Assembly: GCA_016844685.1 (NCBI GenBank)
Contig: JAENJF010000011.1
Coordinates: forward strand, 1-32,963
Length of the DNA: 32,963 nucleotides
Direction of reading: 5' to 3'
From: Candidatus Nitrosotenuis sp.
GTDB lineage: Archaea > Thermoproteota > Nitrososphaeria > Nitrososphaerales > Nitrosopumilaceae
Below, piece by piece: positions 8,247 through 10,387 of this stretch. Positions within the stretch are counted from its first letter, which is position 1; every line of letters starts with the position of its first letter. The notes under the pieces were generated by a model that saw only the letters and a list, made by a program, of their open reading frames with translations, had not been told where the DNA came from and did no database searches. Made by a program: the position numbers and the translations under genes.

Positions 8247-9152
8247 TTAGATAGAAAGAGATACAAGTAATGCCTTTTGGGAATGAAGCCTATTTTCTGC
8301 CTCATCCCAGACAACAGATTGTGATCCATCAATGACAGAGGCAGTTACCTCCTGACCTCTTTTTGCTGGAAGGCAGTGCATGAAAATGGCATTTTCGTTA
8401 GCTTTTGCCATAAGTAAAGAATTCACTTGATACTTTGGAAGGAATTTTTTGAGTTGTTTTGGATCGTCGTGAATTGATACGAATGTATCTGTAACTATAA
8501 CATCAGAATTGGACACTGCCTTTTGTGGATCTAGAGTTAGTTCAATGTCGATTAGTTTTTTGCAATTTTGGATTATTTTGTGATCAGGTTCAAATCCCTT
8601 TGGGGTTGCAATAGATAGGGAAATTTCTGCCTTGGCACAGCCATAAATCATCGAATTACATACATTGTTTCCATCGCCAATCCAAGCAAGTTTTAGTCCT
8701 TTGAGTTTTCCTTTCTTTTCTTTGATAGTCATTAGATCTGCTAGAATTTGGCATGGATGGAATGAATTAGACAAACCATTGATTACTGGAACTTTGGAAT
8801 GTTTTGCCAAAGTCTCAACGACAGAATGCTCGTAAACTCGCGCCATGATGACATCTGCATATCTAGAAATTGTTTTTGCAGTATCCTCAATTGTTTCTCC
8901 TCGCGATAGCTGTAATTCCTGTGAGGAAAGATTCAGCGCATGACCTCCAAGTTGGAACATTCCTATTTCAAAGCTTATACGTGTTCGAGTTGACGGTTTT
9001 TGAAATATCATTGCAAGTGTTTTATTTTTTAATAGTGGTTTTGAGATTCCTTTTTTGAGATCTTTTTTTAGTTTTATTGCAAGGTCTAGTATTTGCAATA
9101 GCTCTTTTTTGTCAACCTCATCCAGTGTTAGTACATTTTTAGATTTTATCAT
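8247..9152 (-). CDS. argF: Ornithine carbamoyltransferase
   Basis: 301 aa. Joins carbamoyl phosphate and ornithine to give citrulline in arginine synthesis; cytoplasmic. The carbamoyl-phosphate site STRTR is at residues 54-58, the HPCQ motif (132-135) is typical of transcarbamylases, and the ornithine-side residues lie in TDTFVSIHDD and HCLPAKRG (259-266). The SMG-type loop reads VSIHDD rather than the more usual VSMG, a small deviation. It overlaps the ftsY stop by 4 nt. An amino-acid gene between ftsY and the ribosomal block is an unusual neighbour and may be a local insertion. Confidence 0.93.
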   Translation of the reverse strand: MIKSKNVLTLDEVDKKELLQILDLAIKLKKDLKKGISKPLLKNKTLAMIFQKPSTRTRISFEIGMFQLGGHALNLSSQELQLSRGETIEDTAKTISRYADVIMARVYEHSVVETLAKHSKVPVINGLSNSFHPCQILADLMTIKEKKGKLKGLKLAWIGDGNNVCNSMIYGCAKAEISLSIATPKGFEPDHKIIQNCKKLIDIELTLDPQKAVSNSDVIVTDTFVSIHDDPKQLKKFLPKYQVNSLLMAKANENAIFMHCLPAKRGQEVTASVIDGSQSVVWDEAENRLHSQKALLVSLSI

Positions 9153-10387
9153 TTAAACCAACCAAAACGCCGCCTCTTCTTTGGTTCCTCTTCTTTTTTA
9201 TCTTCTTTTTGTTTTTCTTTAACCTCAGGTTCTTTGGTTTCCGGTTTTGATTCGAGTTTTTCCTGTTTCTTTGGTTGCTGGCCTGGCATTGGGCGACTGT
9301 TAGCTATCCAATTTCTAATATTTTTGGAAAGAGTAAACGCATCATCATCATTTTCAGGGGGCGGAACGTCGTACAAATCAGCGTATGTAGAGATGTCTTG
9401 ATCTTTAATTCCTTCAAACGGGTCTGAGCCTTTTTTTGACATTGGTTCTGGTTTTGGTTCTGGTTTTGGTTCTGGTTTTGGTTCTGGTTTTGGTTCTGCC
9501 TCAAGAAACACTTGCTTGTCAAATGGCTTTAGGTCTGAATATTCCTGACCTACTCCGACATACAAGATTGGTTTTGAGGTGATTTTAACTACAGATAGTG
9601 CTGCCCCTCCACGAGCATCAGCATCGCTTTTTGTCAGTATTGCACCATCAAACTGTACATGCCGATAGAATTCCCTTGCTTGGTTGACAGTATCATTTCC
9701 AGCTAATGAATCGCCTACAAAGATCTTTAGATCTGGTTTTACTACCTTGGTAATTTTTTCGATTTGATCCATGAGGTTTTTGCTTGTCTGCATTCTTCCT
9801 GCAGTATCAATCAAAACGCAATCAATTTTGTGGGATTTAGCATAAAGTACGGCATCTCGTGCCACTGCTGCAGGATCAGAGCCATAATTTTGAGCAATTA
9901 TTCTAATGTTTAATCGGTTTGCGTGTTCCGTTAGCTGCTCTATTGCTCCTGCTCGGAATGTATCTGCAGCTGCAATTACTACTGAGAATTTATTTTCCTT
10001 TAAAAGATACCCGAGTTTTGCAAGAGTCGTTGTTTTTCCAGTTCCATTAATTCCAACAAACAAGATCACACATGGCTCGCCAGAATTTTTCTTTGAGTTG
10101 ATGTTTGATATTATATCAACAGAGCCTACAGCATCAAACAGTCCAGAAATACTTTGAATTAGACTATTTTTGATAAAGGATTCAATTTCTTTTTTATCAA
10201 CAGATGTGCCGATTAACTTTTTTTTAAGGTCAGACTTGATTGTATCAATTACTTCAGTTGCAACATCTGACTCCATTAATTCGATTTCTAACTGGAATAA
10301 AATGTTGTCAATGTCATTTTCTTTTAGTTCCTTTTCACCAAGACTTTTAGCTACGGATGAAAAGGTGCTACGTAATTTATCAAACAT
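9149..10387 (-). CDS. ftsY: Signal recognition particle receptor FtsY with long C-terminal tail
   Basis: 412 aa. Membrane-associated GTPase that receives SRP-ribosome complexes and hands them to SecY. An N-domain helical bundle (about 1-95) is followed by the G domain: P-loop GINGTGKT (112-119), the insertion-box motif DTFRAGAIEQL (142-152), DTAGR (194-198), TKSDADARGG (252-261), and closing helix DLKPFDKQVF (285-294). The usual end of FtsY is there, but about 116 residues follow: a (EPKP)n repeat, an Asp/Pro-rich segment (YADLYDVPPPENDDD), a Lys/Glu-rich stretch and a basic-aromatic end (KKRRRFGWFK). In bacteria the charged A domain is N-terminal; here it is appended at the C terminus. It lies 6 nt from pfdA and overlaps argF by 4 nt. 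Confidence 0.95.
   Translation of the reverse strand: MFDKLRSTFSSVAKSLGEKELKENDIDNILFQLEIELMESDVATEVIDTIKSDLKKKLIGTSVDKKEIESFIKNSLIQSISGLFDAVGSVDIISNINSKKNSGEPCVILFVGINGTGKTTTLAKLGYLLKENKFSVVIAAADTFRAGAIEQLTEHANRLNIRIIAQNYGSDPAAVARDAVLYAKSHKIDCVLIDTAGRMQTSKNLMDQIEKITKVVKPDLKIFVGDSLAGNDTVNQAREFYRHVQFDGAILTKSDADARGGAALSVVKITSKPILYVGVGQEYSDLKPFDKQVFLEAEPKPEPKPEPKPEPKPEPMSKKGSDPFEGIKDQDISTYADLYDVPPPENDDDAFTLSKNIRNWIANSRPMPGQQPKKQEKLESKPETKEPEVKEKQKEDKKEEEPKKRRRFGWFK
9444..9498 (-). repeat. 12-bp tandem repeat in ftsY coding EPKP repeats
   Basis: The plus-strand unit ggttctggtttt is repeated four times (9444-9491) with a partial fifth copy (to 9498). It encodes the Pro-Glu-Pro-Lys spacer between the FtsY GTPase domain and its C-terminal tail. 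The unit is in frame, so the spacer could lengthen or shorten by slippage. Confidence 0.9.

Follow-up and report, generated by a model that had tools for sequence, protein, structure and literature searches.

A C-terminal tail of the SRP receptor FtsY in ammonia-oxidising archaea, with a conserved mini-domain and a basic-aromatic tip that may tether it to the membrane

The SRP receptor FtsY encoded in the window (the whole stretch of DNA analysed, 32,963 nucleotides of Candidatus Nitrosotenuis sp.) carries a long tail behind its GTPase core. The tail holds a mini-domain as constrained as the GTPase core and ends in a basic-aromatic tip similar to the motifs with which E. coli FtsY binds lipid. 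We think it rather probable, by comparison with E. coli, that this tail is a C-terminal membrane or translocon tether, a functional mirror of the bacterial A domain, joined to a docking mini-domain. The A domain of bacterial FtsY is N-terminal and strongly acidic, and it binds anionic lipids and SecYEG. To our knowledge, little is understood of the way in which archaeal FtsY, lacking both SRbeta and an A domain, gets to the membrane.

The ftsY gene and the parts of its tail

The ftsY gene lies on the minus strand at 9149..10387 and codes for 412 residues. Its NG GTPase core (residues 1-296, 9500..10387, minus strand) is defined by Pfam SRP54, which spans residues 105-296, by NCBIfam ftsY (TIGR00064, residues 26-296, 302.1 bits against a cut-off of 260.7), and by AlphaFold2 with Foldseek, the top structural match being P. 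furiosus FtsY (3e70, E 1.2e-31, TMt 0.87). The ffh model stays under its cut-off on this protein (226.9 vs 473.2), and the nearest PDB sequences are archaeal FtsYs. Its nearest relatives among FtsYs belong to Ca. Nitrosotenuis, and the window genome has archaeal amoA, which makes the host a Nitrosotenuis-like ammonia oxidiser. The ATG stands 6 nt past the stop of pfdA (prefoldin alpha), which leaves no space for an A domain at the N terminus. The protein starts directly with alphaN1, an amphipathic helix (MFDKLRSTFSSVAKSLG, residues 1-17, 10337..10387, minus strand) with a hydrophobic moment of 0.60 over residues 1-18, modelled as a helix at 2-15, whose role is assigned by comparison with published work (PMC2572998, PMC5533587). 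The stop codon overlaps the start of argF. Further downstream, on the same strand, lie the genes for L18, S5, L30, L15 and SecY, followed by one like adenylate kinase and one like EMC3/TMCO1. The names of argF, the ribosomal genes and the kinase were assigned by eye from the translations.

Does the GTPase domain end normally at about residue 296, as the initial annotation had it? The end is indeed at 296, but about nine residues at the end of helix alpha7 (VFGSGDIAH), present in close relatives, are absent from the window FtsY. At the junction of core and linker (9496-9503) the window reads FLEAEPKP where close relatives have FLEAVFGSGDIAHEPKP. Either the deletion is real or the assembly went wrong at the repeat. 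As a separate observation, the best FtsY match in two genomes of the same genus (G071 and G148, 98% and 93% complete) reaches only the level of SRP54-like proteins, so that ftsY is missing from these assemblies.

The 116 residues from 297 to 412 run in one frame with the core, in agreement with the extension first noticed. They begin with an EPKP linker (residues 297-320, 9428..9499, minus strand), and the EPKP repeats reported before were found again as 4.8 perfect copies of a 12-bp tandem DNA unit at 9442..9498 (minus strand). Next comes the mini-domain, here called the module (residues 321-368, SDPFEGIKDQDISTYADLYDVPPPENDDDAFTLSKNIRNWIANSRPMP, 9284..9427, minus strand). It had been taken for two separate segments, one acidic and proline-rich and one helical-looking, which turn out to be one continuous conserved unit. 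A disordered spacer rich in Lys, Glu and Pro (residues 369-401, 9185..9283, minus strand) leads to the tip (residues 402-412, PKKRRRFGWFK, 9152..9184, minus strand), so that the Lys/Glu tail ending in RRRFGWFK was described correctly. The net charge is -6 in the module, near neutral (-1) in the spacer and +6 in the tip. In an AlphaFold2 prediction of the whole protein, made with 49 aligned FtsYs, pLDDT is below 50 across most of the linker, which is predicted to be disordered, and across residues 372-412.

The module has about 48 residues with the pattern DPFEGI..DI..Y..L.DVPPPEND..A..LA..I..WI..GRP, and its alignment shows 8 invariant columns in 36 rows. The predicted structure consists of a helix at 329-339, an extended PPPEND loop and a helix at 347-362, with pLDDT 93-96 within the full protein and about 93 when folded alone, both helices being retained. 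Selection was compared with the three closest relatives, all of the same genus (L004, L005 and L007, core dS 0.6-0.7). The dN/dS ratio is 0.02-0.05 for the module and 0.04-0.05 for NG, 0.05-0.22 for the last 12 residues with the tip, where there are very few sites, 0.16-0.40 for the spacer, and about 0.7-2 for the linker, which is homogenised. Thus the linker drifts as filler, while selection holds the module no less tightly than the GTPase. Linker length is highly variable across species.

The array also affects the assemblies. Two ftsY genes (L054, from 1501, and L022, from 3001) are frameshifted within it, with the module readable in another frame, through an altered A-run: A4 to A3 with an extra CCA, and A4 to A6. 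L054 comes from a single-contig genome, and the shifts are either sequencing error or true slippage. Contigs break inside the EPKP/EPTP array in L010, L021, L024, L026, L028-L033, L049, L059 and L064, so ftsY is often truncated in metagenome-derived genomes.

Could the whole tail be functionless low-complexity filler, grown by expansion of the 12-bp repeat? The perfect repetition of the array at the DNA level, its widely drifting number of copies and the lack of clear purifying selection on it all fit; but this describes the linker only, and for the module, with its invariant columns and a dN/dS equal to that of the GTPase core, filler is already refuted. For the tail as a whole we regard it as very improbable. 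Still less credible, and given almost no chance, is an artefact in which frameshift, fusion or mis-assembly joined FtsY to another frame. The frameshifted assemblies and the many contigs ending in the array would speak for it, but the tail of the window FtsY keeps the frame and has counterparts in dozens of independent assemblies, single-contig genomes included. More than 50 relatives have the same modules in frame behind the core, so the tail is not explained by a frameshift or a gene fusion, and the frameshift into another gene that the initial annotation had envisaged did not occur.

Distribution of the tail and its parts

How widely is the tail found? The survey took in 150 genomes of the class, 23 further genomes, the majority of them belonging to other families of the order, plus about 120 of the phylum. 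Among these, a C-terminal tail was seen only in two families: Nitrosopumilaceae (f1, assigned by named records; 56 distinct complete FtsYs were counted) and f3, which has large genomes with amoA and is probably Nitrososphaeraceae. Tails of 81-315 residues occur in 55 of the 56 complete FtsYs of the former and in all 15 of the latter. The tail implied to be unique is therefore shared across the family, and a 2010 paper had already described its repeats (PMC2905702). In families f2 (probably Nitrosocaldaceae) and f5 amoA is present and FtsY ends within 12 residues of the core, which rules out a simple tie of the tail to ammonia oxidation. The 32 outgroup archaeal FtsYs have only 2-16 residues beyond the core. 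Some longer open frames exist in other families of the phylum; for most of them the match starts further into the query, which suggests N-terminal extensions. On a tree of the FtsY core all tailed proteins fall in one clade with the amoA-positive families (98/98). The tree needs three changes in tail state, of which the starred branches force at least two, and one gain plus losses or two gains are both compatible with it.

Among the 56 FtsYs of Nitrosopumilaceae the module is present in 53 and a KKKRSLFGWFKK-type tip in 45, the latter being found in most of family f3 too; 43 have both parts, 10 just the module, 2 just the tip and 1 neither. The two with the tip only (L104 and L105) belong to reduced genomes, in which the tip is the sole conserved piece of the tail remaining. 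The one with neither (L128, genome G159) is an FtsY of 308 residues with no tail at all, a natural deletion. A module match in that genome was rejected as a chance match in a glucosamine-6-phosphate synthase-like ORF. As 10 of the 56 end after the module without a tip, and L128 lacks both, neither part is universally needed.

In the 15 tails of f3 the module is absent. Five end in a KKSRFGWFKKKK-type tip and ten (L073, L077, L080-L087) in a conserved acidic motif, VVYLTDEDIEDLLK, within the last ~15 residues, preceded by a stretch rich in Lys and Glu; eight of these ten have an internal tip-like motif upstream (e.g. KKSRFGGLFGRKK). The acidic end may possibly be another docking motif.

The module acts as a unit of its own, in that it is predicted to fold in isolation, is duplicated within one FtsY (L101) and is present in a second protein of the same genome (L120:1212-2867, minus strand; genome G037). 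That protein, the only one besides FtsY in which the module was found, has a degenerate copy followed by acidic repeats and coiled-coil-like repeats, with no Pfam domain. Searches by sequence and by fold gave no significant Pfam or PDB match for the module. The best fold matches, none of them significant, are the emerin LEM domain (E 2.2, TM 0.44-0.50) and the SF3B2 SAP domain. Foldseek E values for LEM/SAP/HeH folds were at least 2.2, Ish1 was the sole Pfam family matched by two module members (2 of 36, E 0.05), and the SURP domain 1x4o reached E 0.051 over 27 residues. LEM, SAP and Ish1 share with the module two helices joined by an extended loop, a resemblance of topology only, which serves as a lead. 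The module is probably a docking or an autoinhibitory domain.

Part of the tail has been described before. Zwieb and Bhuiyan named the C-terminal proline-rich repeats of marine Crenarchaeota, as in N. maritimus FtsY, the "R region" (PMC2905702). The window tail has the same plan, EPxP/EPVV-type repeats C-terminal to NG, and its EPKP array is a member of the R region. That account, in the parts cited here, deals with repeats only, leaves their expression and function open, and has neither a folded module nor a basic-aromatic tip (PMC2905702). The tail also goes beyond the R region in its relatives, since the two genomes without module keep the tip and f3 tails are without EPxP repeats. A 2021 evolutionary study places the membrane-targeting region of FtsY in or before the N domain, with a C-terminal extra domain typical of Ffh only (PMC7987157). 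In the open-access papers searched we found no text on EPKP in FtsY and no description of module or tip. The repeats have thus been known since 2010, while the module, the tip and the match of the tip to E. coli motifs appear to be undescribed before. P. furiosus FtsY (3DM9/3E70) also has the N-terminal helix alphaN1, but it is described as an NG protein, and its solved chain ends at about the end of the NG match, without a comparable tail.

Likeness of the tip to E. coli motifs and the role of the tail

What might the tip do? A profile of 10 positions was built from 27 tips of Nitrosopumilaceae, without any E. coli sequence. Its top match in E. coli K-12 FtsY is residues 6-15 (KRGFFSWLGF, 13.9 bits), and the second is residues 192-201 (KEGFFARLKR, 12.3 bits), which include Phe196. 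The best background score was 9.7 among 35,870 windows of 143 E. coli ORFs; as this background is a 100-kb genome sample, ribosomal protein operons included, the result is a strong indication rather than a genome-wide test. When the profile was built from both families, its best score on E. coli FtsY was reached by 0 of 500 shuffles of that protein. The two matches coincide with the lipid-binding motifs alphaA1, the first 14 residues of E. coli FtsY, which serves a dynamic membrane mode, and alphaN1 at the A/NG junction, which with Phe196 serves a stable mode, as a single-molecule study describes (PMC5533587). Such likeness over ten residues argues for similar use and not for common descent. 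The window tail resembles the E. coli A domain with alphaA1/alphaN1 in having a charged or proline-rich linker beside the NG domain, predicted here to be disordered, that ends in a Lys/Arg and aromatic motif. It differs in standing C-terminal rather than N-terminal to NG, in its near-neutral linker and in its extra folded module, and homology between the two is not detectable.

As the tip is conserved and its profile matches the E. coli motifs (13.9 against 9.7 bits), a membrane or translocon contact at the opposite terminus, as first proposed, is the best reading. The picture of a bare charged tail like the A domain has to be given up, the most conserved part being a predicted folded mini-domain for which no bacterial counterpart was found. 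The C terminus of FtsY in ammonia-oxidising archaea would then do the job of the bacterial A domain. The tip may insert at the archaeal membrane interface or on SecY, making a fast and reversible first contact like that of alphaA1, and alphaN1, retained at the N terminus, would give the stable contact that is linked to the forming of a complex with SRP. Between core and tip, the EPKP and Lys/Glu stretches may be flexible spacers that tolerate changes in length and leave the NG domain free to search near the translocon, and the mini-domain would dock most likely on a membrane-side partner such as SecY or an EMC3-like insertase. Attachment would take two steps as in E. coli, with the first contact moved to the C-terminal side. 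The geometry need change little, because the N and C ends of SRP GTPases are close together (PMC2572998) and a tail would set out from about the same point whichever end carries it. As the N terminus keeps alphaN1, membrane contact was probably added to that end's contact and not moved from it. We also count for the tether that ftsY shares its strand with secY and the EMC3-like gene, that the tip recurs in f3 tails and that it outlasts the module in the two reduced genomes. Against it we count the family members with no tip or no tail, the tail-less ammonia oxidisers of f2 and f5, and the near-neutral spacer where the E. coli A domain is strongly acidic.

Two other roles deserve consideration. 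The tail might be mainly autoinhibitory, its acidic module folding onto NG/alphaN1 in free FtsY and being released at the membrane, which would raise fidelity. The negative charge of the module and the adjacent N and C ends (PMC2572998) fit this, as do two published effects of the A domain in E. coli, which inhibits the stable membrane mode (PMC5533587) and also shields the SRP site (PMC8082313). On the other side, prediction has the module folding on its own, and the distance between it and NG ranges from about 30 to 150 residues. We consider autoinhibition as the main role doubtful, though it is compatible with a tether. Less likely again is that the basic tip binds RNA or the ribosome, at the exit-tunnel region or SRP RNA, and helps FtsY to find SRP-bound ribosomes. 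The positive charge and the aromatic residues of the tip would suit RNA stacking, and the small-domain helices of N. maritimus SRP RNA are eroded (PMC2905702). Against RNA binding, the conserved core F-G-[WF]-[FLM] beside a Lys cluster matches the motifs by which E. coli FtsY binds lipid, and in the E. coli sample, with its many ribosomal proteins, no window scored as high as these motifs.

If the C-terminal tether is the right reading, what does it mean for this abundant group of archaea? More tentatively than the tether itself, the module may be a new receptor domain, so far only in Nitrosopumilaceae, by which FtsY docks on the translocon or an EMC3-like insertase; together with the tip, membrane attachment would then be the reverse of the bacterial arrangement, and other archaea would have nothing comparable. 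The module offers a defined bait for the neighbours of the translocon in ammonia-oxidising archaea, and the tail-less FtsY of L128 is useful as a comparison. A tail tip that resembles the lipid-binding motifs of E. coli would let the dependence of SRP receptor attachment on the terminus be tested.
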